A stretch of 64,000 nt of DNA, taken from NCBI RefSeq assembly GCF_019797845.1, contig NZ_CP081864.1:558001-622000 (forward strand), read 5' to 3'. Under the pieces are notes generated by a model. That model was not told the DNA's origin. It saw nothing but the letters and a program-made list of their open reading frames with translations, and ran no database searches. The position numbers and the translations under genes were made by a program. Below are positions 7,667 through 42,553 of this stretch, in pieces. Source of the stretch: Symbiopectobacterium purcellii (GTDB lineage: Bacteria > Pseudomonadota > Gammaproteobacteria > Enterobacterales > Enterobacteriaceae). Numbering within the stretch: the stretch's first letter is position 1; every line of letters starts with the position of its first letter.

Positions 7667-8008
7667 GGTTAGGCGAGTGGCGTATGCGTGTCGCACTGTG
7701 CCAATTTGTGACGCGGTGTGCCGTGTTATGGCGTAAAAATGCGGTGTGAATGTGATTTGTCACGCCTAAGGAAGGGAGTCGGCAAGTCGAAATGGACGGT
7801 AAGTTATTGATAAAAATGTCGTGTATTGTCGTGCTTTGTTGTGTTTTGTTGCCTGTTTTTTGAGCGATAAAGTCATTCAATATATTGATAATAATGGTTT
7901 TTATTTATTTTAACTCTGCTAAGCATGCCATAGCGCCATAAAAATACCGAGATTATTATTCAATATGTTATAGCGTATCGGTCGAAATTACTCGAAATTC
8001 GATCGAAA
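7667..8008. other. Probable phage attachment region between prophages A and B
   Basis: No gene of normal size. It lies between the last tail gene of one prophage and the 3' end of an integrase, where lambda-like phages keep att. TCGAAATTACTC is repeated at 7982-8014 and resembles Int arm-type sites. The half nearest int reappears almost unchanged at 30595-30812. I cannot fix the core sequence. Confidence 0.5.
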
Positions 8009-9076
8009 TTACTCAATCTCAGTCCACTCAGCGCCCCTGACATTTCGGTATTTATCCGTCATCTCTGATGACTTATGTCCGAGCAATTTTTGCGCATAAT
8101 CCCTCCCTTTCTCATCAGTGTAGAGTCGTGCCGCCAGGCTTCTGATTTCATGAAATGAGGGAGGTTTGCGTTCCCATGTTAATCCTGATATACGGCGCGC
8201 CTTCAAAAAAGCGGCAGATATCGTTTTTGCGGCAAATTGCTTGTATTTGGTGTTTGCGACAATATGCGCTATTCCGTTGTTTAATTTCCTGAACTGGTTC
8301 AGTACATCAGCAAGGCATAAATTGAGGCAGTCGATGCGGGTTGTCTGGGAAAACGCCAGCATCATGCCTGTTTTTGCTTGCTTGATGTAAAGCCGTCCGT
8401 CTTTTAAATCCTCCCAGCATAGCGCCTGTATATCGCCGAGGCGTTGACCTGTCACCAAAGCAAGGTCAAGGCAGGGCCCGACCCAGGCGGGTAATCTATC
8501 CGCTGCCTTGCGGATGACTTTCCACGCATCCAGGGTTATGCGCCCCCGTTGAATATTTATACGTTGGTTTCGGGTGGCTTCGGCAGGATTGCTTTTGAGT
8601 AGCCCCTCAGCAATCGCTTCACGAAACAGGTCACGTAACAACGCCCTGATGCAGTTCGCCATTGTCACTTTTCCTTCTTTTACCCACTGATGAAGGAACG
8701 AGGCAATGTCTTTGGTTTCTACCTGCTGAATAGCGAATTCACCTAAGTGGGCATTGACTGCTTTCAGGTATTTATTGTACTCGCTCATCGTTTTCGGCTT
8801 GAGTTTCCGTCCTTCGAGTATCCTCAGATAACGTTCAGTCCATTCGCTAACTGTAGTCACCTGTGTGTCGTTGATGCGGTCAACGAGCGGTGATGGTTTT
8901 GATGAGCCATAAATCGCCATATTAGCGGCGATGGCTTGCGTAATGGCCCCCTGTCGATGGCGGCCCAGGCCATACTCTTTTCCGGTGCGCGGGTCACGGT
9001 AGCAAAAATAGCCGCCATTGCGCGGTTGCAGGTTTGGCGGCAAATCGCGGTTCTTATGGCTTCTCCGGCGTGCCAT
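8009..9076 (-). CDS. int: Lambda-type tyrosine integrase
   Basis: 355 residues, close in length and layout to lambda Int. The N-terminal arm-binding domain shows YFCYRDPRTGKEYGLGRHR, followed by a core-binding domain and a catalytic domain with all six expected residues: R212 (TGQRLGD), K235, H309 and R312 (HEIRSLAARLY), H334 (LLGHKS) and Y343 (DKY). The 3' end faces the attachment region and the start overlaps xis. An identical protein is encoded at 30813-31880. It should integrate and, with Xis, excise the prophage. Confidence 0.95.
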   Translation of the reverse strand: MARRRSHKNRDLPPNLQPRNGGYFCYRDPRTGKEYGLGRHRQGAITQAIAANMAIYGSSKPSPLVDRINDTQVTTVSEWTERYLRILEGRKLKPKTMSEYNKYLKAVNAHLGEFAIQQVETKDIASFLHQWVKEGKVTMANCIRALLRDLFREAIAEGLLKSNPAEATRNQRINIQRGRITLDAWKVIRKAADRLPAWVGPCLDLALVTGQRLGDIQALCWEDLKDGRLYIKQAKTGMMLAFSQTTRIDCLNLCLADVLNQFRKLNNGIAHIVANTKYKQFAAKTISAAFLKARRISGLTWERKPPSFHEIRSLAARLYTDEKGRDYAQKLLGHKSSEMTDKYRNVRGAEWTEIE

Positions 9077-20490: not shown

Positions 20491-20635
20491 GGTGATGTAT
20501 GCCATCATTGACCTCTGCTAAAATCAAGCCGCTGCGCCATTTGTCATGACGGTGAGCGGGTGGGGGAATGACCAATCGAAGAAATGCGGTAGTGAACGTT
20601 GCACACAGGGTGTGCAGTGATGAAGGTGATTTCAG
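20403..20635 (-). pseudogene. 5' part of xis and its upstream region, duplicated
   Basis: A 233-bp block identical to 9191-9423, containing the first about 35 codons of xis read leftward. It is joined to O on the left and to the fimbrial island on the right. It matches copy A of xis rather than the diverged copy at 32097, so it arose by recombination with the prophage B copy. Confidence 0.85.
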
Positions 20636-20905: not shown

Positions 20906-21103
20906 CTCCAGTAAGGCCAGAACGCTCATTTTATCCGGGTCTGGCCAGTGTGCCACTTTGTTGCGTTTCGAGTGGGAATGGGGCAATAAATCCGATCATC
21001 AAAATAAATATTGGACATTTTTTCCGATAGTGCCGTTTTGCCTGGGCGGTTTATGCCGGGAATCCGTAGTGTGTGACTATCAAATAATTTATTTCGATAA
21101 GTC

Positions 21104-21132
21104 TTGACGATCTATGTGTGGTTGTGTATAAT
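21104..21132 (+). promoter_or_regulatory. Sigma-70 promoter for fimbrial operon 1
   Basis: TTGACG, 17 bases, TATAAT: a near-consensus promoter pointing at the fimbrial genes, about 430 bp upstream of the chaperone. A miniature element has inserted between it and the first gene. Confidence 0.75.
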
Positions 21133-21230
21133 GCTCTCAAAGGGGTGTTTTGGGAAAGTTCGCACGACAGTATCATCGGCACGTTCATTGTGTGGGGGTA
21201 TTATTTCTGATAGCCAATCAACGTATTGAA

Positions 21231-21395
21231 GGCTTTGTTGAATAAACATATTTTATGCTGCACCCCCGGTGAAACGACAGATCATCGCAACGCAAAATCA
21301 TGCAGTTAGATAAAACTGTACACCTGATGTGACAAGCATTTTCAACCAAAAATTGCATGGAAAAACAGCATGATTCACTATTATTCAACAAAGCC
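21231..21395. mobile_element. IS903-like miniature element in the fimbrial leader
   Basis: 165 bp with perfect ends GGCTTTGTTGAATAA and TTATTCAACAAAGCC and a 9-bp target duplication CGTATTGAA on both sides (21222-21230, 21396-21404). Non-coding. It lies in the 5' untranslated region of the fimbrial transcript. Confidence 0.92.
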
Positions 21396-21560
21396 CGTAT
21401 TGAATACATGATCGTCTTAATGCGCCGTAAATACGTATATATGCCGTCACCAACGGTCGGGGCGTGTGTTTTTCTCTCTCGGTTATGCTGGGCATGGAAC
21501 TGTTTTAATCTGTTTGTTACCGGCTCAGATAAATGAATATTAATTTTATTAAGGTTTGTC

Positions 21561-22295
21561 ATGCGGCTTCGTTCACTTATTTTCGGTGTGACTGCGTTTT
21601 TTTGTTTTTTTCTGGCTGCAGATGCTGTCGCGGCAATGTACGTCTACCCGATGGTAGCCTCTCTTGATGACAAAAGCACCAGGCAACTGACGCTTGTATC
21701 AAAAGATGATGATGTGCAATTTGTTAAAGTGACGCTGAAACGAATAGAAAATCCCGGCACGCCGCAGGAGCGTGAAGTTGTCTCCGATATTGGCGGTGAT
21801 ACCGGCATTGCTGTGGTGCCCTCGAAAATTGCGCTGGCAGCCGGCAGTGAAAGGATTGTCCGAATTGTATCAATGTTACCACCAGAGAAAGAAACAACCT
21901 GGCGTATTTACTTTGAGTCTGTAGATAAAAACACCTTCTCTTCTGAGATTACCGGGAAATCATCAAATAAAGATATTTCCACCCGGGTGGGTGTCAATAT
22001 AATCTGGGGTGTTTTATTGCATGTGCCGCCTCAGAATATAGTGGTCAGCATGAAATACCGTCCGGGCTCATCTGAAATCTTAAATGATGGTACGGTCAGA
22101 TTGCAATTAAAGGAAATTGGCATCTGTGATAAGCAGGGGAACTGCAAATGGCAAAACAAAGTGAAAACAATTTATCCAGATATGCAGGTCATCCTTAAAG
22201 ATTTTACGTTCAAACCAGGTGAGCAGTACAAGTTTAAATATACAGATGTTACAACCGGCAATGTGAAGGAGATAACGCCTGAGGCATTGCCATAG
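21561..22295 (+). CDS. Alpha-class (CS1/CFA-I type) fimbrial chaperone
   Basis: 244 residues with a signal peptide (FGVTAFFCFFLAADAVA). The periplasmic two-domain chaperone pattern is AMYVYPMVASLDDKSTRQLTLVSKDD with SERIVRIVSMLPPEKETTWRIYFE. It resembles CooB/CfaA-type alternate chaperones, which donate a strand to fimbrial subunits before the usher. First gene of a four-gene operon; identical to 33148-33882. Confidence 0.88.
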   Translation: MRLRSLIFGVTAFFCFFLAADAVAAMYVYPMVASLDDKSTRQLTLVSKDDDVQFVKVTLKRIENPGTPQEREVVSDIGGDTGIAVVPSKIALAAGSERIVRIVSMLPPEKETTWRIYFESVDKNTFSSEITGKSSNKDISTRVGVNIIWGVLLHVPPQNIVVSMKYRPGSSEILNDGTVRLQLKEIGICDKQGNCKWQNKVKTIYPDMQVILKDFTFKPGEQYKFKYTDVTTGNVKEITPEALP

Positions 22296-22329
22296 TACTT
22301 TTTAAGAACAGTTGATTTAAGGGTAACTG

Positions 22330-22836
22330 ATGAAAAAAATTCTTTCATATTCACTGCTTTCTGCAGCCATTCTGACTTTCACATCCGCGCATGCTGTGAC
22401 AAGAGACATCACCGTCACGGCATCGATTGATCCGACCGTGGATATCACGCTCTCTGACGGCACGGCTTTGCCGGACACCATTGCCATGTCGTATTTGCCG
22501 AGTCATGGGCTCAATTCCGTCTCAAGGAGTGTGAAGCTCTGGTCTAACTCAGCCACTGCTGACCTGACTATTGCCCTGGCAACAAGTTCACCATCACTGA
22601 GCGCACCGACGACGACCACCACCATCCCTCTTACGGTGACGCTGAACGGTATCGAGCTTAATACGGCGAGCTCGAAACTGGAGTTTGCCGAGTATTTCCC
22701 GAACGGGATTACTAACGGCTCAATCACAATCCCTCTGGTGATATCCCAGACAACCAAGGGTGTTGTCAGTACTGCGGGTGACTACAGCGGAACCGTCTCC
22801 CTGGTTCTGGCGCAGGCAACAAGCCAAGGCTCCTGA
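22330..22836 (+). CDS. Major fimbrial subunit, CS1 type
   Basis: 168 residues. The signal peptide ends SAHA, and the mature start VTRDITVTASIDPTVDITLSDG carries the donor-strand motif typical of CooA/CfaB pilins (ITVTASIDPTVD). No cysteines, as in the class. It forms the fimbrial shaft. Followed by a strong hairpin. Identical to 33917-34423. Confidence 0.9.
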   Translation: MKKILSYSLLSAAILTFTSAHAVTRDITVTASIDPTVDITLSDGTALPDTIAMSYLPSHGLNSVSRSVKLWSNSATADLTIALATSSPSLSAPTTTTTIPLTVTLNGIELNTASSKLEFAEYFPNGITNGSITIPLVISQTTKGVVSTAGDYSGTVSLVLAQATSQGS

Positions 22837-22847
22837 TTTATTAATTC

Positions 22848-22874
22848 ATACCTGGCGGCAACCCCGTCAGGTAT
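22848..22874 (+). promoter_or_regulatory. 11-bp stem-loop between pilin and usher genes
   Basis: ATACCTGGCGG, five-base loop, CCGTCAGGTAT-type arm: 11 pairs with one G-T. No T-run follows, so it is more likely an mRNA processing or stabilising hairpin that raises pilin over usher. The second copy lies at 34435-34461. Confidence 0.6.
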
Positions 22875-22892
22875 CTTCTGTGCGGGTTTTAT

Positions 22893-25595
22893 GTGAACCG
22901 ATTTCCAGTCTGTAGTATTCTCTTTCCTTTTGCAGTCATCATTCCAGCGATATCTCATGCCACTATGCGTGTCCCGGCAGGGTTTGAAGAGTTGATTCAG
23001 GGTCAGGAATTTCAGTCAGAGGTTCAGGTATATGGTCAGTCTCTTGGCATGGCCCGTATCCGGGTGGACCTTGAAAATATAACCTTTCTTGAGCCTGATA
23101 AATTATCGCTGGCCATCGCGAAACTTTACGGCAATCCCTCCGGACTTGATTCCCTGCTGACAAAAAAACTTCATCTGCCATTGAGCAGGAATGGCCAGTT
23201 ATCATGCAGTGCCCACCGGGGGCGTGTCGGCTGTGATTATCTCAAAACAGACAGCCTCGGTCTTATTTATGATGAAAACAATAATGTAGTCAGACTGTTT
23301 CTCAGCGACCGTTACACTCTTCACGAGCCTGAAGACAGTGGTTATTACCAGGCCACGCCAGCAGGCCGCAATGCACTTATTCACCAGCAGGCTCTAAATC
23401 TGGCCACGACGGGTCAGTATCAATCACTGACATTAAGAGGTAATGGCACTCTCGGGCTGGGAGAAACCAGCTATGCCAATGTGGACTGGAGCTGGCTGAG
23501 CCAGCGTTCTGGTCATTCCGGTACCCAGCAGGCGGAAGCCTCTAATGCGTATTTCAGGCAGGATTTTCTGAAACGCATCTATATCCAGGCCGGACTGATG
23601 AATTCTCAGGATATCTATACGAATGCGGGGGGGAATATAGCCCTGAATCAGTTGCCGATAGGGCGCATTCGCGGCTTTCGTATGGGGTCGACTCTGGCGT
23701 GGGCAAATAAAAGCAAAATGTCAGCAGGCACGCCTGTGAACCTGTTTTTACCCCGGGATGCGCGAGTGGATGCCTACCGGGATAATCAGTTGCTCAACAC
23801 GTTCTACCTCAAAGCCGGCATGCAGTTACTCGATACCAGTATGTTACCGGCGGGCAGTTACACGCTGACCTTGCGTATTTATGAGAATAACCAGCTCGTA
23901 CGAACGGAATCACAGCTTTATACCCGCCAGGAGATAGGGTGGGGGAACGGATTTCAGTGGTTCCTGCAGGCGGGTTCACCGGACAGTGAACGCTCCTCCA
24001 TGACTACGGATGCTTCACATGAGCATTTTGTCATGCATGCCGGCGGTCGCCTCCCTCTGACAGACACGCTGGCGCTTACGGCCGGAACGGCTGTACTCAG
24101 TGAGTCTGAATATGCCGAAGCGGCAGCCGACTGGCTTCATGGATTTGACGCGGGGGGGCAGCTGAGCACGCGGGTCAGCTCGCTGCAAGGCAGCGATGGT
24201 TCCCGAGGGAATACCCAGCAGGTGAGTTACAACGATGGTTTCGCTCTCAGCTTTTACCGCACATCACGGACGGCGGATGACTGTAATGTCCAGCGCTCGC
24301 ATATTTATGACTTCACGGGCTGCTACAAAAACACCAGCGTGATGTTGTCTGTTCCCGTAATGAGCTGGCAGGTCATTGTGGGTTATACCCTTAGCGATAA
24401 TCAGGGGCGTTATGTTTACCGTCAGGACCTGGATGAAAACAGTGCTGAATATAATGCCGGTGCCCCCTGGGAACAGGTGTACCAGTCCCGCTCCCGTAGC
24501 GAGAACTGGCAGCTTGGTCTGAATCGCAGCTTTGCTGTCAATGGCCTCAATATAAACACGCGGCTGAGCGCTTATGTCAGAAATGTCAGCACCTACAGCA
24601 GCCCCGACAAAGGCGGGTATATCGGGGTATCAATATCCCGCAGTACGAAACTTTCAGGCGGAGCTCGCCGGACAACCAGCGCCGGCGTCAGCTGGCAGTC
24701 TGGACAGCCAAGTGGAAGTCAGCTTGGGTACAGTACATCAATGACCCAATATGGCGAAGATAACGGAAATGACCGCATAGGCGTGGCATTGTCAGGCGTC
24801 AATACTGATACGGTGAATGGCTCGGTCACCGGAAGTACCGGCAGTCAGTACGGTGATGGCACGCTGACGGTAAGTGATGCGTGGGACCGTTCAGGAAGCC
24901 GCCGGCATACCTTTGGCAGCAGCGGAGCCTACAACTCCTCCCTGGTGGTGGACCGGTCAGGCGTGGCGCTGGGGCGCTGGAGTAATGACGGCGCGGCCTC
25001 AGCCTTTGGTGTCTCCGTCGGGCAGAGTGATGGCGAGACCGGTTCCCGGGTCAGTATCTCCGGTCTCGGGCGTCGGACGGATATCACAAGCGGGCGGCGG
25101 GCAGTGTTTACGACGCAGGGATATCAGGAAAGCAGATTCAGTATCAATGAGTCGGGCGTCCCCTCTGACGGGGTGGCGGCTGAAATCACCCGGGGTACGG
25201 GCACGACCACGGCCTTTATGGCTCCCGGTAAAATACTTAATAAAGAGGTTACCGTGAGTCCGCGCTATATCTGGCTCGGCCGGTTGCTTGATGGTTCACG
25301 TCAGCCTCTTGAGGGCGCTATCCCCCTCAATGTGGCGTCATGGACGTCAGTCGGTGACGGCGGTTTTACCATGGAGACGGAGTCACGCATGGACCAGCTG
25401 TACGTTATGCGGGCAGACCGGTTCTGGGTGTGTGCACTGAAGGTGCGGAAAGTACGCGATGTCGTTCGCTATCTGGGTGCCACCACGTGCCAGCGCACAG
25501 ATATGGCGCATCTGCCGTCAGCAGAGCGTCGTCAGGTTACCCTGATGACCGCCGGGTCAGAGCGTACAAACAGCCCGGTAGCAATGACAGACTAA
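22893..25595 (+). CDS. Outer-membrane fimbrial usher, CS1/TcfC type
   Basis: 900 residues, GTG start (MNRFPVCSILF), signal peptide ending ISHA. The long central beta-barrel has an N-terminal domain and plug region (LEDTS-like segments, QLPIGRIRGFRMGSTLAWANKS) and the CooC/CfaC-type C-terminal domain (RYIWLGRLLDGSRQPLEGAIPLN). It secretes chaperone-bound subunits and assembles them tip first. Identical to 34480-37182. Confidence 0.9.
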   Translation: MNRFPVCSILFPFAVIIPAISHATMRVPAGFEELIQGQEFQSEVQVYGQSLGMARIRVDLENITFLEPDKLSLAIAKLYGNPSGLDSLLTKKLHLPLSRNGQLSCSAHRGRVGCDYLKTDSLGLIYDENNNVVRLFLSDRYTLHEPEDSGYYQATPAGRNALIHQQALNLATTGQYQSLTLRGNGTLGLGETSYANVDWSWLSQRSGHSGTQQAEASNAYFRQDFLKRIYIQAGLMNSQDIYTNAGGNIALNQLPIGRIRGFRMGSTLAWANKSKMSAGTPVNLFLPRDARVDAYRDNQLLNTFYLKAGMQLLDTSMLPAGSYTLTLRIYENNQLVRTESQLYTRQEIGWGNGFQWFLQAGSPDSERSSMTTDASHEHFVMHAGGRLPLTDTLALTAGTAVLSESEYAEAAADWLHGFDAGGQLSTRVSSLQGSDGSRGNTQQVSYNDGFALSFYRTSRTADDCNVQRSHIYDFTGCYKNTSVMLSVPVMSWQVIVGYTLSDNQGRYVYRQDLDENSAEYNAGAPWEQVYQSRSRSENWQLGLNRSFAVNGLNINTRLSAYVRNVSTYSSPDKGGYIGVSISRSTKLSGGARRTTSAGVSWQSGQPSGSQLGYSTSMTQYGEDNGNDRIGVALSGVNTDTVNGSVTGSTGSQYGDGTLTVSDAWDRSGSRRHTFGSSGAYNSSLVVDRSGVALGRWSNDGAASAFGVSVGQSDGETGSRVSISGLGRRTDITSGRRAVFTTQGYQESRFSINESGVPSDGVAAEITRGTGTTTAFMAPGKILNKEVTVSPRYIWLGRLLDGSRQPLEGAIPLNVASWTSVGDGGFTMETESRMDQLYVMRADRFWVCALKVRKVRDVVRYLGATTCQRTDMAHLPSAERRQVTLMTAGSERTNSPVAMTD

Positions 25596-25630
25596 TACGT
25601 TTACACCAATAATCCAGACCGTGAGAGCCG

Positions 25631-26695
25631 ATGAAAACAAACATTTATTGCTGGCTGACAGCCCTGTGCTGGCTGGTATCGCTGCCTGTGCTGGCTGACC
25701 TGCCGACAAGCAACACGACGACCGTGACGGAGACGATGGACACCAGTTCGCTGCCCGCCCCGCTGTATATCTGGAATAAGGTTATCGTTGGCAGCAGTAC
25801 TGGGACGAACTCAACTAACGTAGGCATGGTCTGTAAAAGCAGCACGGACAGCACCAATGGAGCTTGTCCGACAGCCCTTTCTTGGACTGGCTTGGCCCCG
25901 GGCTTCATTACGCTGACGTTCACCCAGGACCGCACCGGGCAGACAAAGACCCTGACTGTGGCTGGAGTGCGTAATATTGGATCGGCCAATTCATTTAAAC
26001 CTTGGACCGGGGTAAATTCTGGTGGTCTTTATGCGCCAATACTTACTTATAGTATCGCGCAGAGTGAGTTAAGCAGCCTGACTGACGGAGTCTGGCGCGC
26101 CACTTTGGTGATGGATTACTACAATTATTCTCCAGCTACGTATGTGGCCACCTGGACTGCCAGCATCACTCTGACTGTCACCTCAGAAAGTGCCCAGCAG
26201 GTGTATTTCCCGGCCTTTGCGTCCACAGATGCAACTGTTGACCTGGACGTTCGCGGGCTCTTATCGACAACCACAAGCGGTTCGGCCTCGCTGGATATGT
26301 GTCTGTATGACGGCGCGAATGCGGCAGGAAAAACGATAATCCTGTCGCTAAGTGATCAGGGGGCTTCACCTTCAGACCGTACCTCGGGTCTTTTCTCCGT
26401 CTACCGGACCGGAGGGAGTGCGGCGGATGCGGCAGACCGCATTGACTTTGCCATCACGGTAAAAAATCCGGTTACCCGCGCTGCGCAGACGGTGAAGAAT
26501 GGCGAGTCCATCACCTGGACAGCACCGGATGGGGGGTTCACCGCACGACTGGTCACCCTGCCAGACTACACGACATCCACGTATTGTGTTCCGGCGCCGC
26601 TGACATTTACCACCCAGACTTTTAAGCCCTCAACTAAACACAGCGGCGATTATACCGGGACGGTGACGGTCACCTATACCCCAAGCACCAGCTGA
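25631..26695 (+). CDS. Fimbrial tip adhesin, allele 1
   Basis: 354 residues, signal peptide MKTNIYCWLTALCWLVSLPVLA. Last gene of the operon, size and place of CooD/CfaE minor tip subunits. The C-terminal pilin domain (from about residue 215) is identical to allele 2. The N-terminal lectin-like domain differs from allele 2 in blocks at residues 50-64, 82-92, 111-136, 166-169 and 206-211, with identical DNA between. Cysteines at 68 and 79 are kept. It presumably binds the receptor; the ligand is unknown. Confidence 0.85.
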   Translation: MKTNIYCWLTALCWLVSLPVLADLPTSNTTTVTETMDTSSLPAPLYIWNKVIVGSSTGTNSTNVGMVCKSSTDSTNGACPTALSWTGLAPGFITLTFTQDRTGQTKTLTVAGVRNIGSANSFKPWTGVNSGGLYAPILTYSIAQSELSSLTDGVWRATLVMDYYNYSPATYVATWTASITLTVTSESAQQVYFPAFASTDATVDLDVRGLLSTTTSGSASLDMCLYDGANAAGKTIILSLSDQGASPSDRTSGLFSVYRTGGSAADAADRIDFAITVKNPVTRAAQTVKNGESITWTAPDGGFTARLVTLPDYTTSTYCVPAPLTFTTQTFKPSTKHSGDYTGTVTVTYTPSTS

Positions 26696-26779
26696 AAAAA
26701 CAGCGTTCACCCTGACGGGATGAATCCTTTTTGGGTCATGTATTCAATCCCCAATTCCCAAACGAAATGCAACAAAGTG

Positions 26780-27176
<397 letters not shown>

Positions 27177-28906: not shown

Positions 28907-29553
28907 TGAGCAACTATTCTACTGATATTGAGACTGCCGAATTAGGCGAAAATGGACTCAGCAAAAAGGCTGGCTGGATCACTGTCTATCGCGCGCATCA
29001 TTTCACGCGCGAATACCACAGCGCCAGCATGGAGTATCTCATGCTTGGTGTAGGCCTTCCCGCCCACAGTTACCCCGATGAACCAGAGTTACCGCCTGTT
29101 GGGCAAGCGCTGCATCGCTCGGCTGATGGCAAGTTGTGGGAATTTTCACCCGATCATCGCGGGCAAACGGTTTACGGCACAGAAACACGGCAGGAACAGA
29201 CTGTCACCCAATTCGGCGAACTGCCGGATAATGTCACGTTACTGAAGCCCGAGACCGAGTTCGATGAGTGGAACGGAAAAAAGTGGGTGACAGACACGAA
29301 AGCCCAGCAAGCGGCGGAATCACTAGCTGAGCAGCAGGCGGCACAACAGGAGTTAAGCTCACGCCTTACTGTAGCGAATACCCGCATTGAGACGCTGAGC
29401 GATGCGGTTGATCTGGATATGGCTACTCATGAAGAGAAAACCGCGTTAAAGGGGTGGAGAACGTACCGGGTGCAGCTGAGCCGCATTGATATCAGCACAG
29501 CGCCGGATATCGACTGGCCGGAAGCGCCCGAAGGTGGAAAAACGGTGAATTAG
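28906..29553 (+). CDS. Tail fibre assembly protein
   Basis: 215 residues, coupled to the fibre gene by TAATG. MSNYSTDIETAELGENGLSKKAGWITVY, then a variable middle and WNGKKWVTDTKAQQ before an Ala/Gln-rich coiled coil. Its stop overlaps the convergent Rpn gene by four bases. Confidence 0.85.
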   Translation: MSNYSTDIETAELGENGLSKKAGWITVYRAHHFTREYHSASMEYLMLGVGLPAHSYPDEPELPPVGQALHRSADGKLWEFSPDHRGQTVYGTETRQEQTVTQFGELPDNVTLLKPETEFDEWNGKKWVTDTKAQQAAESLAEQQAAQQELSSRLTVANTRIETLSDAVDLDMATHEEKTALKGWRTYRVQLSRIDISTAPDIDWPEAPEGGKTVN

Positions 29554-30494
29554 CGTCGGTCGTCGAACAGGGTAGCCAACTCGTCGTCGGAAAGGCCGGT
29601 CGACATTTTGACAAGAGTACGTTCAACGCCGTTGGCGAGAAGTTGCCTTGCAATGTTGAGCGAGGCGGTATGCTCGCCTTCTTGGCGTCCTTCTTGGCGA
29701 CCTTCTTGGCGACCGAGGTGAATGCCTTCTTGGCGACCTTCCTGGCGTAGCTGTTCTGCAATGGTCATGACATCCTCCTGATAATCTTGTGTCTGTGCGG
29801 CTATGGTATGCAAGAACTGTCTGGTGTCTGAGGTTTCGCCTCGACCTACAATGTAGTACATCAGGCTACGAAACTGCTCTTTAGGTATCGCCCATAGATT
29901 GAGCAGGCGGGCGATATCTCCTGCCAGTTCCAGCATGTCCCGAGTACGGATGTGTTTTTGCACCAATTCCAGCAGTGCTACCCGCCGATGAGAGAGTATT
30001 TCATCATCCGGCATAGCGGTGATATCGACCAGCGGGAATGCCTGTGTATAGACTGATTCTGCCAGTTCAGGGTCAGTAAAGCAATCGAGCCATTGGGTGC
30101 TGTAGGGGTAGGGCGACGTGGTGCCGTGGTAGAACAGGAGTGGAATGACCACGGGCAAGGTCTCGTTGCCTTGCTCTAGGTGGCGCTGCATGGCTGCCAT
30201 GCTATAACGCATTAAACGCCACGCCATTAACTTCTCAGGGCTACTTTGGTGCTCGATGAGTGTATAAATGTAGCCTCTCCCCGCATTTGTCTGCACGGAA
30301 TAGAGCATATCCGAACACTGGGTGCGCAGGTCGTCTTCGATAAAACTGCCGGACTCCATCGCAAGTGTGCTGAAATCACAGCGCTCACGCAGGTGTGGTG
30401 GTAGATGGATTTCCAAAAAGTCTCGGGCCACAGCGATATCACCGAGAAACTTTTTGAACAGAGAATCATGTTGGGAAAGTGAGGATGTTGTCAT
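29550..30494 (-). CDS. Rpn family recombination-promoting nuclease
   Basis: 314 residues. The N-terminal PD-(D/E)XK fold is typical of RpnA/YhgA proteins (HDSLFKKFLGDIAVARDFLEIHLP, DMLYSVQTNAGRGYIYTLIEHQS with D and ExQ, then MAWRLMRYSMAAMQRHLEQ). The C-terminus has repeated RQEG units from a 12-bp tandem repeat (29677-29742), a feature seen in the family. It lies between the tail genes and the attachment region, a common cargo position. It probably nicks DNA and promotes recombination. Confidence 0.88.
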   Translation of the reverse strand: MTTSSLSQHDSLFKKFLGDIAVARDFLEIHLPPHLRERCDFSTLAMESGSFIEDDLRTQCSDMLYSVQTNAGRGYIYTLIEHQSSPEKLMAWRLMRYSMAAMQRHLEQGNETLPVVIPLLFYHGTTSPYPYSTQWLDCFTDPELAESVYTQAFPLVDITAMPDDEILSHRRVALLELVQKHIRTRDMLELAGDIARLLNLWAIPKEQFRSLMYYIVGRGETSDTRQFLHTIAAQTQDYQEDVMTIAEQLRQEGRQEGIHLGRQEGRQEGRQEGEHTASLNIARQLLANGVERTLVKMSTGLSDDELATLFDDRR

Positions 30495-30812
30495 CGGCGA
30501 AGTATACCTTGCTCAGGTTACGGTATGCCATCGGGATTTCCAGCGCGGGGTGAATGTGATTTGTGACACCTAAGGAAGGGTGTTGGAAAGTCGAAATGGA
30601 CGGCAAGTTATTGATAAAAATGTCGTGTATTGTCGTGCTTTGTTGTGTTTTGTTGCCTGTTTTTTGAGCGATAAAGTCATTCAATATATTGATAATAATG
30701 GTTTTTATTTATTTTAACTCTGCTAAGCATGCCATAGCGCCATAAAAATACCGAGATTATTATTCAATATGTTATAGCGTATCGGTCGAAATTACTCGAA
30801 ATTCGATCGAAA
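30495..30812. other. Attachment region, second copy
   Basis: From 30595 to the end of int this is the same DNA as 7791-8008 (two or three base changes at the outer edge), including the TCGAAATTACTC repeats. The outer 100 bp is only partly alike. No gene. It marks the junction between the tail end of one prophage and the integrase of the next. Confidence 0.55.
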
Positions 30813-31880
30813 TTACTCAATCTCAGTCCACTCAGCGCCCCTGACATTTCGGTATTTATCCGTCATCTCTGATGACTTATGTCCGAGCAATTTTTGCGCA
30901 TAATCCCTCCCTTTCTCATCAGTGTAGAGTCGTGCCGCCAGGCTTCTGATTTCATGAAATGAGGGAGGTTTGCGTTCCCATGTTAATCCTGATATACGGC
31001 GCGCCTTCAAAAAAGCGGCAGATATCGTTTTTGCGGCAAATTGCTTGTATTTGGTGTTTGCGACAATATGCGCTATTCCGTTGTTTAATTTCCTGAACTG
31101 GTTCAGTACATCAGCAAGGCATAAATTGAGGCAGTCGATGCGGGTTGTCTGGGAAAACGCCAGCATCATGCCTGTTTTTGCTTGCTTGATGTAAAGCCGT
31201 CCGTCTTTTAAATCCTCCCAGCATAGCGCCTGTATATCGCCGAGGCGTTGACCTGTCACCAAAGCAAGGTCAAGGCAGGGCCCGACCCAGGCGGGTAATC
31301 TATCCGCTGCCTTGCGGATGACTTTCCACGCATCCAGGGTTATGCGCCCCCGTTGAATATTTATACGTTGGTTTCGGGTGGCTTCGGCAGGATTGCTTTT
31401 GAGTAGCCCCTCAGCAATCGCTTCACGAAACAGGTCACGTAACAACGCCCTGATGCAGTTCGCCATTGTCACTTTTCCTTCTTTTACCCACTGATGAAGG
31501 AACGAGGCAATGTCTTTGGTTTCTACCTGCTGAATAGCGAATTCACCTAAGTGGGCATTGACTGCTTTCAGGTATTTATTGTACTCGCTCATCGTTTTCG
31601 GCTTGAGTTTCCGTCCTTCGAGTATCCTCAGATAACGTTCAGTCCATTCGCTAACTGTAGTCACCTGTGTGTCGTTGATGCGGTCAACGAGCGGTGATGG
31701 TTTTGATGAGCCATAAATCGCCATATTAGCGGCGATGGCTTGCGTAATGGCCCCCTGTCGATGGCGGCCCAGGCCATACTCTTTTCCGGTGCGCGGGTCA
31801 CGGTAGCAAAAATAGCCGCCATTGCGCGGTTGCAGGTTTGGCGGCAAATCGCGGTTCTTATGGCTTCTCCGGCGTGCCAT
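30813..31880 (-). CDS. int: Lambda-type tyrosine integrase, second copy
   Basis: Protein identical to the one at 8009-9076 over all 355 residues, with R212, K235, H309, R312, H334 and Y343 present. Identity extends through about 1.45 kb of DNA, from the attachment region into xis. Two identical integrases with the same arm sites could each act on either prophage, which would favour exchange, deletion and duplication between them. Confidence 0.95.
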   Translation of the reverse strand: MARRRSHKNRDLPPNLQPRNGGYFCYRDPRTGKEYGLGRHRQGAITQAIAANMAIYGSSKPSPLVDRINDTQVTTVSEWTERYLRILEGRKLKPKTMSEYNKYLKAVNAHLGEFAIQQVETKDIASFLHQWVKEGKVTMANCIRALLRDLFREAIAEGLLKSNPAEATRNQRINIQRGRITLDAWKVIRKAADRLPAWVGPCLDLALVTGQRLGDIQALCWEDLKDGRLYIKQAKTGMMLAFSQTTRIDCLNLCLADVLNQFRKLNNGIAHIVANTKYKQFAAKTISAAFLKARRISGLTWERKPPSFHEIRSLAARLYTDEKGRDYAQKLLGHKSSEMTDKYRNVRGAEWTEIE

Positions 31881-32719: not shown

Positions 32720-32817
32720 GCTCTCAAAGGGGTGTTTTGGGAAAGTTCGCACGACAGTATCATCGGCACGTTCATTGTGTGGGGGTATTATTTCTGATAG
32801 CCAATCAACGTATTGAA

Positions 32818-33147: not shown

Positions 33148-33882
33148 ATGCGGCTTCGTTCACTTATTTTCGGTGTGACTGCGTTTTTTTGTTTTTTTCT
33201 GGCTGCAGATGCTGTCGCGGCAATGTACGTCTACCCGATGGTAGCCTCTCTTGATGACAAAAGCACCAGGCAACTGACGCTTGTATCAAAAGATGATGAT
33301 GTGCAATTTGTTAAAGTGACGCTGAAACGAATAGAAAATCCCGGCACGCCGCAGGAGCGTGAAGTTGTCTCCGATATTGGCGGTGATACCGGCATTGCTG
33401 TGGTGCCCTCGAAAATTGCGCTGGCAGCCGGCAGTGAAAGGATTGTCCGAATTGTATCAATGTTACCACCAGAGAAAGAAACAACCTGGCGTATTTACTT
33501 TGAGTCTGTAGATAAAAACACCTTCTCTTCTGAGATTACCGGGAAATCATCAAATAAAGATATTTCCACCCGGGTGGGTGTCAATATAATCTGGGGTGTT
33601 TTATTGCATGTGCCGCCTCAGAATATAGTGGTCAGCATGAAATACCGTCCGGGCTCATCTGAAATCTTAAATGATGGTACGGTCAGATTGCAATTAAAGG
33701 AAATTGGCATCTGTGATAAGCAGGGGAACTGCAAATGGCAAAACAAAGTGAAAACAATTTATCCAGATATGCAGGTCATCCTTAAAGATTTTACGTTCAA
33801 ACCAGGTGAGCAGTACAAGTTTAAATATACAGATGTTACAACCGGCAATGTGAAGGAGATAACGCCTGAGGCATTGCCATAG
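33148..33882 (+). CDS. Alpha-class fimbrial chaperone, copy 2
   Basis: All 244 residues identical to 21561-22295. With two identical chaperones, either can serve both operons, so mixed fimbriae with either tip are possible. Confidence 0.88.
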   Translation: MRLRSLIFGVTAFFCFFLAADAVAAMYVYPMVASLDDKSTRQLTLVSKDDDVQFVKVTLKRIENPGTPQEREVVSDIGGDTGIAVVPSKIALAAGSERIVRIVSMLPPEKETTWRIYFESVDKNTFSSEITGKSSNKDISTRVGVNIIWGVLLHVPPQNIVVSMKYRPGSSEILNDGTVRLQLKEIGICDKQGNCKWQNKVKTIYPDMQVILKDFTFKPGEQYKFKYTDVTTGNVKEITPEALP

Positions 33883-33916: not shown

Positions 33917-34423
33917 ATGAAAAAAATTCTTTCATATTCACTGCTTTCTGCAGCCATTCTGACTTTCACATCCGCGCATGCTGTGACAAGAGACATCACC
34001 GTCACGGCATCGATTGATCCGACCGTGGATATCACGCTCTCTGACGGCACGGCTTTGCCGGACACCATTGCCATGTCGTATTTGCCGAGTCATGGGCTCA
34101 ATTCCGTCTCAAGGAGTGTGAAGCTCTGGTCTAACTCAGCCACTGCTGACCTGACTATTGCCCTGGCAACAAGTTCACCATCACTGAGCGCACCGACGAC
34201 GACCACCACCATCCCTCTTACGGTGACGCTGAACGGTATCGAGCTTAATACGGCGAGCTCGAAACTGGAGTTTGCCGAGTATTTCCCGAACGGGATTACT
34301 AACGGCTCAATCACAATCCCTCTGGTGATATCCCAGACAACCAAGGGTGTTGTCAGTACTGCGGGTGACTACAGCGGAACCGTCTCCCTGGTTCTGGCGC
34401 AGGCAACAAGCCAAGGCTCCTGA
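33917..34423 (+). CDS. Major fimbrial subunit, copy 2
   Basis: All 168 residues identical to 22330-22836. Identical shafts mean the two operons would make fimbriae differing only at the tip. Confidence 0.9.
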   Translation: MKKILSYSLLSAAILTFTSAHAVTRDITVTASIDPTVDITLSDGTALPDTIAMSYLPSHGLNSVSRSVKLWSNSATADLTIALATSSPSLSAPTTTTTIPLTVTLNGIELNTASSKLEFAEYFPNGITNGSITIPLVISQTTKGVVSTAGDYSGTVSLVLAQATSQGS

Positions 34424-34479: not shown

Positions 34480-37182
34480 GTGAACCGATTTCCAGTCTGT
34501 AGTATTCTCTTTCCTTTTGCAGTCATCATTCCAGCGATATCTCATGCCACTATGCGTGTCCCGGCAGGGTTTGAAGAGTTGATTCAGGGTCAGGAATTTC
34601 AGTCAGAGGTTCAGGTATATGGTCAGTCTCTTGGCATGGCCCGTATCCGGGTGGACCTTGAAAATATAACCTTTCTTGAGCCTGATAAATTATCGCTGGC
34701 CATCGCGAAACTTTACGGCAATCCCTCCGGACTTGATTCCCTGCTGACAAAAAAACTTCATCTGCCATTGAGCAGGAATGGCCAGTTATCATGCAGTGCC
34801 CACCGGGGGCGTGTCGGCTGTGATTATCTCAAAACAGACAGCCTCGGTCTTATTTATGATGAAAACAATAATGTAGTCAGACTGTTTCTCAGCGACCGTT
34901 ACACTCTTCACGAGCCTGAAGACAGTGGTTATTACCAGGCCACGCCAGCAGGCCGCAATGCACTTATTCACCAGCAGGCTCTAAATCTGGCCACGACGGG
35001 TCAGTATCAATCACTGACATTAAGAGGTAATGGCACTCTCGGGCTGGGAGAAACCAGCTATGCCAATGTGGACTGGAGCTGGCTGAGCCAGCGTTCTGGT
35101 CATTCCGGTACCCAGCAGGCGGAAGCCTCTAATGCGTATTTCAGGCAGGATTTTCTGAAACGCATCTATATCCAGGCCGGACTGATGAATTCTCAGGATA
35201 TCTATACGAATGCGGGGGGGAATATAGCCCTGAATCAGTTGCCGATAGGGCGCATTCGCGGCTTTCGTATGGGGTCGACTCTGGCGTGGGCAAATAAAAG
35301 CAAAATGTCAGCAGGCACGCCTGTGAACCTGTTTTTACCCCGGGATGCGCGAGTGGATGCCTACCGGGATAATCAGTTGCTCAACACGTTCTACCTCAAA
35401 GCCGGCATGCAGTTACTCGATACCAGTATGTTACCGGCGGGCAGTTACACGCTGACCTTGCGTATTTATGAGAATAACCAGCTCGTACGAACGGAATCAC
35501 AGCTTTATACCCGCCAGGAGATAGGGTGGGGGAACGGATTTCAGTGGTTCCTGCAGGCGGGTTCACCGGACAGTGAACGCTCCTCCATGACTACGGATGC
35601 TTCACATGAGCATTTTGTCATGCATGCCGGCGGTCGCCTCCCTCTGACAGACACGCTGGCGCTTACGGCCGGAACGGCTGTACTCAGTGAGTCTGAATAT
35701 GCCGAAGCGGCAGCCGACTGGCTTCATGGATTTGACGCGGGGGGGCAGCTGAGCACGCGGGTCAGCTCGCTGCAAGGCAGCGATGGTTCCCGAGGGAATA
35801 CCCAGCAGGTGAGTTACAACGATGGTTTCGCTCTCAGCTTTTACCGCACATCACGGACGGCGGATGACTGTAATGTCCAGCGCTCGCATATTTATGACTT
35901 CACGGGCTGCTACAAAAACACCAGCGTGATGTTGTCTGTTCCCGTAATGAGCTGGCAGGTCATTGTGGGTTATACCCTTAGCGATAATCAGGGGCGTTAT
36001 GTTTACCGTCAGGACCTGGATGAAAACAGTGCTGAATATAATGCCGGTGCCCCCTGGGAACAGGTGTACCAGTCCCGCTCCCGTAGCGAGAACTGGCAGC
36101 TTGGTCTGAATCGCAGCTTTGCTGTCAATGGCCTCAATATAAACACGCGGCTGAGCGCTTATGTCAGAAATGTCAGCACCTACAGCAGCCCCGACAAAGG
36201 CGGGTATATCGGGGTATCAATATCCCGCAGTACGAAACTTTCAGGCGGAGCTCGCCGGACAACCAGCGCCGGCGTCAGCTGGCAGTCTGGACAGCCAAGT
36301 GGAAGTCAGCTTGGGTACAGTACATCAATGACCCAATATGGCGAAGATAACGGAAATGACCGCATAGGCGTGGCATTGTCAGGCGTCAATACTGATACGG
36401 TGAATGGCTCGGTCACCGGAAGTACCGGCAGTCAGTACGGTGATGGCACGCTGACGGTAAGTGATGCGTGGGACCGTTCAGGAAGCCGCCGGCATACCTT
36501 TGGCAGCAGCGGAGCCTACAACTCCTCCCTGGTGGTGGACCGGTCAGGCGTGGCGCTGGGGCGCTGGAGTAATGACGGCGCGGCCTCAGCCTTTGGTGTC
36601 TCCGTCGGGCAGAGTGATGGCGAGACCGGTTCCCGGGTCAGTATCTCCGGTCTCGGGCGTCGGACGGATATCACAAGCGGGCGGCGGGCAGTGTTTACGA
36701 CGCAGGGATATCAGGAAAGCAGATTCAGTATCAATGAGTCGGGCGTCCCCTCTGACGGGGTGGCGGCTGAAATCACCCGGGGTACGGGCACGACCACGGC
36801 CTTTATGGCTCCCGGTAAAATACTTAATAAAGAGGTTACCGTGAGTCCGCGCTATATCTGGCTCGGCCGGTTGCTTGATGGTTCACGTCAGCCTCTTGAG
36901 GGCGCTATCCCCCTCAATGTGGCGTCATGGACGTCAGTCGGTGACGGCGGTTTTACCATGGAGACGGAGTCACGCATGGACCAGCTGTACGTTATGCGGG
37001 CAGACCGGTTCTGGGTGTGTGCACTGAAGGTGCGGAAAGTACGCGATGTCGTTCGCTATCTGGGTGCCACCACGTGCCAGCGCACAGATATGGCGCATCT
37101 GCCGTCAGCAGAGCGTCGTCAGGTTACCCTGATGACCGCCGGGTCAGAGCGTACAAACAGCCCGGTAGCAATGACAGACTAA
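34480..37182 (+). CDS. Fimbrial usher, copy 2
   Basis: All 900 residues identical to 22893-25595, GTG start. The lack of drift over 2.7 kb indicates a recent duplication or continued gene conversion. Confidence 0.9.
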   Translation: MNRFPVCSILFPFAVIIPAISHATMRVPAGFEELIQGQEFQSEVQVYGQSLGMARIRVDLENITFLEPDKLSLAIAKLYGNPSGLDSLLTKKLHLPLSRNGQLSCSAHRGRVGCDYLKTDSLGLIYDENNNVVRLFLSDRYTLHEPEDSGYYQATPAGRNALIHQQALNLATTGQYQSLTLRGNGTLGLGETSYANVDWSWLSQRSGHSGTQQAEASNAYFRQDFLKRIYIQAGLMNSQDIYTNAGGNIALNQLPIGRIRGFRMGSTLAWANKSKMSAGTPVNLFLPRDARVDAYRDNQLLNTFYLKAGMQLLDTSMLPAGSYTLTLRIYENNQLVRTESQLYTRQEIGWGNGFQWFLQAGSPDSERSSMTTDASHEHFVMHAGGRLPLTDTLALTAGTAVLSESEYAEAAADWLHGFDAGGQLSTRVSSLQGSDGSRGNTQQVSYNDGFALSFYRTSRTADDCNVQRSHIYDFTGCYKNTSVMLSVPVMSWQVIVGYTLSDNQGRYVYRQDLDENSAEYNAGAPWEQVYQSRSRSENWQLGLNRSFAVNGLNINTRLSAYVRNVSTYSSPDKGGYIGVSISRSTKLSGGARRTTSAGVSWQSGQPSGSQLGYSTSMTQYGEDNGNDRIGVALSGVNTDTVNGSVTGSTGSQYGDGTLTVSDAWDRSGSRRHTFGSSGAYNSSLVVDRSGVALGRWSNDGAASAFGVSVGQSDGETGSRVSISGLGRRTDITSGRRAVFTTQGYQESRFSINESGVPSDGVAAEITRGTGTTTAFMAPGKILNKEVTVSPRYIWLGRLLDGSRQPLEGAIPLNVASWTSVGDGGFTMETESRMDQLYVMRADRFWVCALKVRKVRDVVRYLGATTCQRTDMAHLPSAERRQVTLMTAGSERTNSPVAMTD

Positions 37183-37217: not shown

Positions 37218-38309
37218 ATGAAAACAAACATTTATTGCTGGCTGACAGCCCTGTGCTGGCTGGTATCGCTGCCTGTGCTGGCTGACCTGCCGACAAGCAA
37301 CACGACGACCGTGACGGAGACGATGGACACCAGTTCGCTGCCCGCCCCGCTGTATATCTGGAATAATGTTACCGTTGGCAGCAGCGATGTTGGCAGCAGC
37401 GTTGAGAGTAGCTCATATAAAGTAGGCATGGTCTGTAAAAGCAGCACGGACAGCACCAATGGTGCTTGTCCGACAACCCTTACTTGGAATGATGTGGCCC
37501 CGGGCTTAATTACGCTGACGTTCACCCAGGACCGCACCGGGCAGACAAAGACCCTGACTGTGAGTGGATTGCGTAATAATCGAGAGTCCAATTATAGCCC
37601 TTGGACCTCGGTAACTTTTAATAGAGATCCAAGAAACACGCCAATATTTACTTATAGTATCGCGCAGAGTGAGTTAAGCAGCCTGACTGACGGAGTCTGG
37701 CGCGCCACTTTGGTGATGGATTACTACAACTGGACATCTACGTATGTGGCCACCTGGACTGCCAGCATCACTCTGACTGTCACCTCAGAAAGTGCCCAGC
37801 AGGTGTATTTCCCGGCCTTTGTGTCCACAGATGCAACTGTTGACCTGGGCGTTTCCGGGCTGAACAATGCAGACTTATCGACAACCACAAGCGGTTCGGC
37901 CTCGCTGGATATGTGTCTGTATGACGGCGCGAATGCGGCAGGAAAAACGATAATCCTGTCGCTAAGTGATCAGGGGGCTTCACCTTCAGACCGTACCTCG
38001 GGTCTTTTCTCCGTCTACCGGACCGGAGGGAGTGGGGCGGATGCGGCAGACCGCATTGACTTTGCCATCACGGTAAAAAATCCGGTTACCCGCGCTGCGC
38101 AGACGGTGAAGAATGGCGAGTCCATCACCTGGACAGCACCGGATGGGGGGTTCACCGCACGACTGGTCACCCTGCCAGACTACACGACATCCACGTATTG
38201 TGTTCCGGCGCCGCTGACATTTACCACCCAGACTTCTAAGCCCTCAACTAAACACAGCGGCGATTATACCGGGACGGTGACGGTCACCTATACCCCAAGC
38301 ACCAGCTGA
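37218..38309 (+). CDS. Fimbrial tip adhesin, allele 2
   Basis: 363 residues, nine longer than allele 1. The signal peptide, the first 49 residues and the C-terminal pilin domain match allele 1. The receptor-facing half differs in several loops with insertions (GSSDVGSSVESSSYK; RNNRESNYSPWTSVTFNRDPRN; GVSGLNNADL) set between stretches of identical DNA. Nearly all differences alter the protein. This looks like loops under diversifying selection on a fixed scaffold. Confidence 0.85.
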   Translation: MKTNIYCWLTALCWLVSLPVLADLPTSNTTTVTETMDTSSLPAPLYIWNNVTVGSSDVGSSVESSSYKVGMVCKSSTDSTNGACPTTLTWNDVAPGLITLTFTQDRTGQTKTLTVSGLRNNRESNYSPWTSVTFNRDPRNTPIFTYSIAQSELSSLTDGVWRATLVMDYYNWTSTYVATWTASITLTVTSESAQQVYFPAFVSTDATVDLGVSGLNNADLSTTTSGSASLDMCLYDGANAAGKTIILSLSDQGASPSDRTSGLFSVYRTGGSGADAADRIDFAITVKNPVTRAAQTVKNGESITWTAPDGGFTARLVTLPDYTTSTYCVPAPLTFTTQTSKPSTKHSGDYTGTVTVTYTPSTS

Positions 38310-41205: not shown

Positions 41206-41829
41206 TCATGCTGCTATCTTGGCTAAGGTCCTGATAGCCTCAAGTTCTCTTTCAAGTTCAGCCAGGAACTGGGTCAACGCTTCCTCTATTTCAGCAACCA
41301 ATTTATCGTCCTGATGAATTCTCAACTGGTAATAGGCAAGGTCTGGCGGTAGCCTGTCGTCATAGCTGACAAGATCACACCACTTTCGGCCCGTACACAT
41401 CATTTGGGCGTGCATTTGGAGCAAGTACTGCTGTTTTGGCTTACCAGTCTTGATGGTCTCTAAATGCGTCCATGTATTGGGGCACTTGATTTCAATCAGA
41501 CCATCGCACCCTACGAGTCCGTCAGGCGATGCACCAAATCCTGCGATATCTGGATGGGGAATAAATCCCACTTCCGTCACTTCTGCGTCAAATTGGTTAA
41601 GCAGGTACATCTCCCGCGCCACCGGTTCAAGTTCAGTGCCGCGCTGCATGGCGGCGTTGGAGTAACTTGCTTCCACCTTTCCGGTTAGGCGCTGGCATAT
41701 AAGCTCTGCCATGTAGTTTTGACGGCTGGTAGCGTATCCAGATTTCGTTTTCGCCATCACGTCAGACAGGCGACTGGCGGTCACGTTGCCACAACGGGCG
41801 GAAAACCATTCATCACTGCGCTGTTGCAT
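41206..41829 (-). CDS. exo: Lambda exonuclease-like nuclease, prophage C
   Basis: Start MQQRSDEWFSARCG with GAGGTGGAG upstream. 207 residues with FGASPDGLVGCDGLIEIKCP as the nuclease centre. About 17 bp overlap with bet. Confidence 0.9.
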   Translation of the reverse strand: MQQRSDEWFSARCGNVTASRLSDVMAKTKSGYATSRQNYMAELICQRLTGKVEASYSNAAMQRGTELEPVAREMYLLNQFDAEVTEVGFIPHPDIAGFGASPDGLVGCDGLIEIKCPNTWTHLETIKTGKPKQQYLLQMHAQMMCTGRKWCDLVSYDDRLPPDLAYYQLRIHQDDKLVAEIEEALTQFLAELERELEAIRTLAKIAA

Positions 41830-42553
41830 GCTCCACCTCTCTGTATTCTGCTTCGAATGGGGTGGTGTTCTTGATGCGCTCCTTCTCTGCATTGCCGATA
41901 ATCTGGCGCTCTTCCTGCGAGAGGCTCTTCCATGTTTCAGCGAAGACTTCCATGCTCATCTGAGCCGCCTCTTCGCACCGGGCAATGAGTGCAGGGCGGC
42001 GCTCATCCGTTTCCTTTCCGACGAGAACGCTTGCCGGGCTGCTTTCGATGATCCGCTCCGCCTCGTCACTGTCGTAAATGCCCGCGAAGCCAAATGCCAT
42101 GCGTGCACACTGGATCAGTGACTTGTGGCGTAGCATACGGGTGGGGTGTGATTGCCACGGCTGGGTATTGCGCTTACACTCGCCCATGTATTCGGTGACT
42201 ACAGTGGGGTGTTTGCGATCTTTGCGGTAAATCCTGCAAGTGGATGCGCCCTCATCCTTATCGTAGCTGAATTCCATGCCATCGAATTGCGCATGTTCGT
42301 TAATGATCCGCGCCCAACCATCGACACCAACAACCGGGACAATACCGCCCTTATCAGGGAATGCGTAAATCTCTTTCGTCCACGGGTTAAGCCCGTACTG
42401 GTTGGCAACGATAAGCAAGGCGGTAAATTGCTCATCAGTGACGCTAGCCCCCTTGAACGCCGTATTCTTGAGCGTGCTCATCAATTCGGTGCCGGGTGCC
42501 ATGCCAAGGCGTTCAGCCAGTTTTCCAGCCATGGTTGTTAATGCTGTGCTCAT
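41813..42553 (-). CDS. bet: Single-strand annealing recombinase Bet, prophage C
   Basis: 246 residues, near-identical to the prophage B protein in the Bet core. ATGA overlap with the upstream gene. Exo and Bet in both prophages give a strong potential for recombination between the repeats in this window. Confidence 0.92.
   Translation of the reverse strand: MSTALTTMAGKLAERLGMAPGTELMSTLKNTAFKGASVTDEQFTALLIVANQYGLNPWTKEIYAFPDKGGIVPVVGVDGWARIINEHAQFDGMEFSYDKDEGASTCRIYRKDRKHPTVVTEYMGECKRNTQPWQSHPTRMLRHKSLIQCARMAFGFAGIYDSDEAERIIESSPASVLVGKETDERRPALIARCEEAAQMSMEVFAETWKSLSQEERQIIGNAEKERIKNTTPFEAEYREVEHATAQ

Follow-up and report, generated by a model that had tools for sequence, protein, structure and literature searches.

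Surface fibres determine the host or tissue that a bacterium can hold. The cargo usually attributed to prophages consists of toxins and effectors. In E. coli, the operons of CS1-CFA/I fimbriae are plasmid-borne according to the portion of PMC3559732 available to us, and the receptor pocket of the CFA/I tip adhesin CfaE has been assigned to residues R67, H140, R181 and R182 (excerpts of PMC7573445). In Salmonella, a survey of prophage regions recovered 22 ushers, all but one of the prophages being incomplete or questionable, and the conclusion of that survey, in the sections available, is that prophages are likely not a primary route for fimbriae (PMC9238391). In the Salmonella ste fimbriae, a single adhesin gene has been interpreted as a recombinant of two, and recombination between sister adhesins was proposed (parts of PMC3373541). 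The APSE phage of Hamiltonella is described, in the accessible text of PMC8579659, as a temperate phage with variable virulence-gene content.

Here we describe a full fimbrial operon of the CS1 type that is repeated in a bounded prophage array and whose two tip adhesins differ around the predicted binding pocket; prophages are rarely credited with fimbriae. Among the papers listed by literature searches, none names CS1 or alpha-class fimbriae in prophages, as far as titles and the openings of abstracts disclose.

Four operon copies in a tandem prophage array

The window analysed here is a stretch of 64,000 bases (558001-622000 of the contig) from Symbiopectobacterium purcellii, and it contains operon A1, with tip A, and operon B2, with tip B. 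The original prediction, made from the sequence of this window, described two fimbrial operons. This is right for the window, but in the genome (4.94 Mb, single contig) the same alpha-class (CS1/TcfC-type) chaperone-usher operon occurs four times, inside tandem prophages, two copies with tip A (genome positions 583596 and 629453) and two with tip B (528135 and 595183). A search of the 4.94-Mb genome gave these four TcfC usher matches and no fifth. The genes of the two window copies are as follows.

21561..22295, + strand: operon A1 fimbrial chaperone, 244 aa; best NCBIfam match TcfA
22330..22836, + strand: operon A1 CS1-type major pilin, 168 aa; PF04449, 69.1 bits
22893..25595, + strand: operon A1 TcfC-type usher, 900 aa; PF17271, PF16967, PF15976
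25631..26695, + strand: operon A1 CblD/CfaE-type tip adhesin, allele A, 354 aa; PF07434, 233.7 bits; match to CfaE (3vac), E 3.5e-20
33148..33882, + strand: operon B2 chaperone, identical to A1
33917..34423, + strand: operon B2 CS1-type pilin, identical to A1
34480..37182, + strand: operon B2 TcfC-type usher, identical to A1
37218..38309, + strand: operon B2 tip adhesin, allele B, 363 aa; PF07434, 233.3 bits

The pilin, the usher and the two-domain tip place the operon in the alpha class (CS1/class 5), with all of their Pfam matches above cut-off. The chaperone, which is the first gene of the operon, has no Pfam match and scores 133 bits (E 1.2e-38) against NCBIfam TcfA, under the equivalog cut-off of 500; its counterpart in Pantoea is annotated 'fimbrial protein'. 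Reading frames are open in all four operon copies. A sigma-70-like match (11/12) lies at 32691-32719, in a region (31880-33300) that gave four matches in total, close to the 2.5 expected by chance.

The prediction had placed both tip genes correctly, and its claim that the chaperone, pilin and usher proteins are identical between the window copies extends to the DNA: A1 and B2 show 0 substitutions in 5,163 aligned bp (window 20617-25779) spanning these three genes. A four-way alignment found no variable column among the copies in the same interval, and each tip allele has one and the same sequence in its two copies. Shared shaft genes with two alternative tip alleles are thus present as had been proposed; that the strain produces alternative fimbriae is a step that these sequences suggest.

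All four operons lie within four tandem, head-to-tail, lambda-type prophages (P1-P4) that form a 113-kb array from attL at 521674 to attR at 634591. A putative 8-base attachment core (GCTAAGCA) is found at both ends of the array, with one mismatch at attL, and at the internal junctions at 565918, 588722 and 622992. Every unit begins with a gene for a 355-aa lambda-type integrase, and the 1,068 bases of this gene do not differ between the four units. Searches of PHROGs and Pfam identified phage rep O, terminase, portal, head-tail, tail fibre, replication and recombination genes in the array. The phage features of the window to which we refer below are these.

7918..7925, no strand: putative attachment core, P1/P2 junction (GCTAAGCA)
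8009..9076, - strand: integrase of prophage P2 (355 aa), with the same DNA sequence in each of the four prophages
30722..30729, no strand: putative attachment core, P2/P3 junction (GCTAAGCA)
30813..31880, - strand: prophage P3 integrase, lambda-type; PF09003, PF00589; phrog_7244
41206..42553, - strand: prophage P3 exonuclease and Bet-like annealing protein; phrog_149, phrog_252

The operon adjoins the integrase in P1 (tip B), P3 (tip B) and P4 (tip A). In P2, the integrase-proximal slot holds an AntA antirepressor and a gene for a 573-aa protein in place of the operon, so that the slot is found without the operon in a sister prophage. The P2 layout runs from antirepressor-like genes and the 573-aa gene through phage early genes and a cut Phage_rep_O gene to a 10.3-kb right arm, nearly identical to P4, that carries operon A1 with tip A. 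As all four copies lie between the attL and attR of tandem prophages, together with integrase and other phage genes, we conclude that the operon is prophage cargo (a moron) and not merely a duplicated chromosomal locus.

Several further genes of the array were observed. The 573-aa protein of P2 (12148-13869, + strand) has an HELTH motif and no Pfam or NCBIfam match; its gene looks like cargo in the slot used by the operon in the sister prophages. A pectate-lyase-like protein with a signal-like start (38775-39941, - strand; PF00544, 24.8 bits against a cut-off of 24) is encoded beside operon B in P1 and P3, a tRNA-Gly (ccc) gene (41059-41136, + strand) lies within P3, and a Rpn-family recombination-promoting nuclease (29550-30494, - strand) lies at the right end of P2 and P4. 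Two coiled-coil genes (14088-14618 and 40534-41043, the latter matching the CCDC90-like PF07798) contain a repeated VRKDLSAEIA unit, the copy number of which varies between prophages.

The operon has close relatives on plasmids of 0.33-0.41 Mb in Pantoea stewartii (two records) and Pantoea sp. JZ29, where it is 87.5-87.7% identical at the DNA level over approximately window 21421-26732 and the tips are ~80% identical to those described here. On the left this homology ends near an IS-end-like repeat, which we take to be IS903-like, and on the right near an IS3-family remnant.

21226..21395, no strand: IS-end-like repeat left of operon A1; further copies at 32813-32982 and 40025-40324
26770..27176, + strand: IS3-family remnant right of operon A1; second copy at ~38384-38790

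The remnant is ~86-87% identical to stretches of Serratia plasmids annotated as IS3 family transposase and contains an rve_3 fragment below cut-off. Since the homology to Pantoea stops near IS-like sequences on both sides, these boundaries suggest that insertion elements brought the operon into the phage.

Two tip alleles and the position of their differences

Tips A and B are identical at 313 of 352 aligned residues; the other 39 are replaced, and five indels account for a further 13 residues. At the DNA level, the change between A1 and B2 begins just past 25779, with 54 substitutions and 39 gap columns in ~480 bases (474 aligned bp). Further downstream there are 2 substitutions in 436 bases of the pilin domain and 4 in 481 bases of the IS remnant. 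The number of substitutions in the tip varies with gap placement (54 + 2 in the nucleotide alignment, 69 in the codon alignment). The five or six short blocks of substitutions and indels that had been predicted are readily recognized and map within 25780-26259.

25780..25819, + strand: variable block 1 of tip A; includes the residue that aligns with CfaE R67; 15 extra bases in tip B
25874..25906, + strand: variable block 2 of tip A; includes the residues that align with CfaE S86 and T91
25961..25999, + strand: variable block 3a of tip A
26009..26042, + strand: variable block 3b of tip A; includes the residue that aligns with CfaE H140
26125..26135, + strand: variable block 4 of tip A; positions of CfaE R181 (A/B change silent only) and R182
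26220..26259, + strand: variable block 5, start of the pilin domain; 12 extra bases in tip B
37367..37873, + strand: stretch of tip B with all six variable blocks

The accompanying claim that all blocks lie in the N-terminal adhesin half describes 34 of the 39 replaced residues, but the C-terminal pilin domain contains block 5 together with isolated replacements at columns 275 and 342. Slippage may have added to the 15-base insertion in tip B, since the first 12 bases of the insertion recur directly after it.

As two AlphaFold models of the tip were unusable (mean pLDDT 37.0 and 39.4), the blocks were placed relative to the receptor pocket by a HMMER sequence alignment to CfaE, to which the tip is only ~26% identical. 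In this alignment CfaE R67 corresponds to N63 of tip A (K in B, Q in Pst1, R in Pst2 and JZ29), H140 to G132 (P in B, T in Pantoea), R181 to N165 (N in B, T or S in Pantoea, and so variable in Pantoea only) and R182 to Y166 (W in all others); the placement of R67 and of R181/R182 agrees in a profile of 19 tips. We also inspected CfaE positions 84, 85, 87, 88, 138, 139, 141, 142, 144, 145 and 183, of which 144 and 145 have no aligned residue in the tip.

By this mapping the A/B differences concentrate at the receptor-binding region. The replaced columns include three of the four pocket residues (R67, H140 and R182; p = 0.03), five of six when the antibody-epitope residues S86 and T91 are added (p = 0.0017), and five of seven when the CsbD epitope residue T84, a conserved column, is added as well (p = 0.005). 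The column of CfaE S85, the partner of CsbD T84, is conserved in all five alleles, which counts against the pocket reading. All six pocket and epitope columns vary among the five alleles, against a background of 49 of 160 adhesin columns. The tips of related strains vary in largely the same loops: the three Pantoea alleles differ at 14 of 160 adhesin columns, and nine of these 14 are among the 34 A/B columns (p = 3e-4).

Nei-Gojobori counts (NG86, with multi-hit codons split along paths) gave 55.4 replacement and 13.6 silent substitutions between tips A and B (dN 0.074, dS 0.052, dN/dS 1.41). The ratio is not significantly above 1 for the whole gene (p = 0.39) or for the blocks (p = 0.17), and dN significantly greater than dS, the mark of codon-level positive selection, was therefore not seen. 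The original prediction had counted only about one silent change; we found four purely silent codons (columns 61, 82, 172 and 217), and the region-by-region counts do not support diversifying selection as read from scarce silent change.

Silent change is itself concentrated in the blocks. Within the six blocks there are 12.6 silent changes in 51.2 sites and 53.4 replacements in 149.8 sites, compared with 1.0 in 200.0 and 2.0 in 586.0 in the rest of the mature protein, which corresponds to a ~50-fold concentration of silent change (p = 4e-9), although the blocks were drawn from the A/B differences themselves, so that within-block figures are inflated and the A/B contrast is partly built in. Changes in the blocks fall evenly on the first, second and third positions of codons (21/25/20), and of the 40 block codons that differ, 19 do so by 2-3 changes. 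When the same partition is applied to other pairs, silent divergence is 0.51 inside and 0.31 outside the blocks for A and Pst1, and 0.098 and 0.050 for Pst1 and Pst2; among the six pairs tabulated, the fifty-fold contrast is found for A/B alone. Since the contrast is far smaller in A/Pst1 and Pst1/Pst2, silent change is not inherently so concentrated in these stretches. The loops look old and the scaffold looks new, which points to short-tract exchange. The prediction had offered selection or cassette-like exchange as alternatives; selection as it was worded does not stand, and exchange fits better. Because silent change concentrates in the blocks, short-tract replacement of the loops appears to fit these data better than the accumulation of selected point changes.

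Origin of the two tips

We propose that the operon is a prophage-borne alpha-class operon whose tips share a recent scaffold and had their loops remade by short-tract recombination between divergent alleles, with selection retaining different binders, and we assign this reading a probability of roughly 0.6. Lambda-type temperate phages carry a complete CS1/CFA/I-like operon as cargo, and four of them lie head to tail at one chromosomal attachment site. Tips A and B would descend from a recently common scaffold, and short tracts of other, divergent tip alleles would have replaced the loops during phage co-infection or recombination with resident prophages, possibly assisted by the phage exonuclease/Bet pair. 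Selection would then keep tips that bind different surface sugars or proteins. As the chaperone, usher and pilin are interchangeable, a shaft common to all copies could be capped with A or with B by whichever copy is expressed. That recombination produced the differences, that they alter binding and that the tips are interchangeable on one shaft is inferred from sequence. No donor allele was found for any block, and recombination is read from the pattern of differences only.

The first alternative is one contiguous import after duplication, in which one copy received a single tract (from ~25780 to at least 27082) of a divergent allele whose scaffold had been preserved by ordinary strong constraint and whose loops had been altered by selection. 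Low-density differences do continue downstream of the blocks (6 in 917 bp of pilin domain and IS remnant, against 0 in 5,163 upstream; p = 1e-5), as expected of a tract ending beyond the gene. However, the 78 silent sites between the adhesin-domain blocks should hold ~19 silent changes at the block rate and hold one, a comparison that is not decisive as the block rate is inflated. We consider this import unlikely.

Point mutation with codon-level positive selection after duplication, for which the pathoadaptive evolution of FimH is the model, seems less probable still. It would accommodate the 39 replaced residues beside four purely silent codons, and the variation of largely the same loops in Pantoea, but the dN/dS tests gave no significant excess, silent change is concentrated together with the replacements, and 19 codons have 2-3 changes when there are none in the adjoining 5.16 kb.

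An assembly error, by which copies were chimeric or falsely multiplied in this repetitive array, is in our view improbable. The array has long near-identical repeats of 10.1 and 10.3 kb, which are hard to assemble, and in P2 the cut rep O gene runs into an arm resembling that of P4. Against such an error, the genome is one contig, each allele is found in two different prophage contexts, the frames are open in four copies, and the Pantoea tips vary in largely the same loops.

Targeted hypermutation, for example by a diversity-generating retroelement, would confine change to short blocks as seen, but we give it almost no credence and reject such a retroelement, given five indels between A and B, a search for direct repeats (window 15000-45000, seeds of 20, minimum length 60) in which the variable stretch had no copy beyond A and B, and no nearby reverse transcriptase, the sole matches in the genome being at 4.29 Mb, far from the array. 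Those matches (genome 4288979-4289679) form two adjoining stretches in different frames, so the element there is probably broken. Antigenic variation from silent cassettes is known from the pilS and vls systems. We rejected it for these tips: DNA and protein searches of the genome matched only the four full copies and found no partial donor copies, in a search that very short fragments could escape.

Returning to short-tract recombination between tip alleles, a broader and more doubtful form of it is that the tandem prophages act as an adhesin store and mixing chamber, in which every phage delivers an entire fimbrial operon, recombination within the array (perhaps by exonuclease/Bet) leaves the assembly genes interchangeable and swaps receptor loops in patches, and induction or infection spreads the resulting specificities from one bacterium to another. 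The array is a candidate for lysogenic conversion of adhesion, and the presence of two tips in prophage copies suggests a route to new attachment specificities. Tips A and B, which occur naturally as a matched pair, also lend themselves to the study of how loops of the tip determine specificity.

Distribution and comparison with known systems

Tip matches were found in 38 of 392 genomes of the family, including this one, and among the others the most similar tip is 44% identical; a search of four other genomes of the genus gave no tip relative. Carriage of the operon by prophages is not the rule among these relatives. A survey of 22 of the 37 other tip-bearing genomes, for the lambda-type integrase arm domain only, found that domain in six, with three on the tip contig (175 kb, 238 kb and ~1 Mb away) and three on other contigs. 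Five relatives carry at least two CfaE-like tip genes within a few kilobases, which are perhaps tandem tip genes.

In IMG/VR, searches for alleles of the same species or for copies of the phage (with patterns for the usher and the integrase and an exact pattern of 29 bases) confirmed nothing, and scans of genome contigs with the tip and usher gave no confirmed relative. A full CS1 operon (pilin, usher and tip above cut-off) lies at 5600-10942 of one unrelated 30.8-kb contig in IMG/VR, with an usher 30% identical to the one described here. This contig also has a phage integrase, a lytic tail protein and a weak excisionase-like match; four of ten proteins submitted matched PHROGs, one of them, a tail protein, strongly, and part of the contig may be host DNA. 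The sole usher match in the phage collection is an unannotated 3-kb contig of a Salmonella phage record, which is probably host DNA.

The nearest NCBIfam names are those of the Tcf fimbriae of Salmonella Typhi, namely TcfA (chaperone), TcfC (usher) and TcfD (tip). All of these matches are far below the equivalog cut-offs, and the operon is therefore not filed as a Tcf orthologue. The APSE phage has related DNA (69-73% identity over ~8% of the query, within window 11480-14480), but the word 'fimbria' occurs 0 times in the accessible text of PMC8579659, whereas the phages of this array carry a fimbrial operon.

The ushers in Salmonella prophage regions resemble the present case in that chaperone-usher genes lie within predicted prophages. 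They differ in class, as the available sections of PMC9238391 list FimD, StbC, StdB, SafC and one kappa usher and none of the alpha class, and those sections do not describe a tandem array, a repeated operon or paired tip alleles. The ste fimbriae of Salmonella likewise combine common assembly genes with variable or doubled adhesins, but there, as far as the excerpts of PMC3373541 go, two adhesins lie within one operon, whereas here whole operons are repeated in separate prophages.

The tip is related to CfaE (E 3.5e-20 in a single search, 2.1e-45 by profile), although the positions of R181 and R182 are not arginines in these tips. Alleles of CsbD vary near the receptor pocket (parts of PMC7573445), as do tips A and B. 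The Pantoea plasmid operons share the variable loops, which are largely those that differ between A and B, but each plasmid record has one tip place, compared with two tip alleles in four copies here, and no phage genes are among the listed neighbours (from an incomplete gene table), in contrast to the prophage setting of the present operon. The likeness to CFA/I of enterotoxigenic E. coli (class 5, alpha) lies in the domain families of the pilin, usher and tip. The difference lies in carriage, since the E. coli operons are found on plasmids in the available part of PMC3559732 and the operon described here occurs four times, with two tips, as cargo of prophages.
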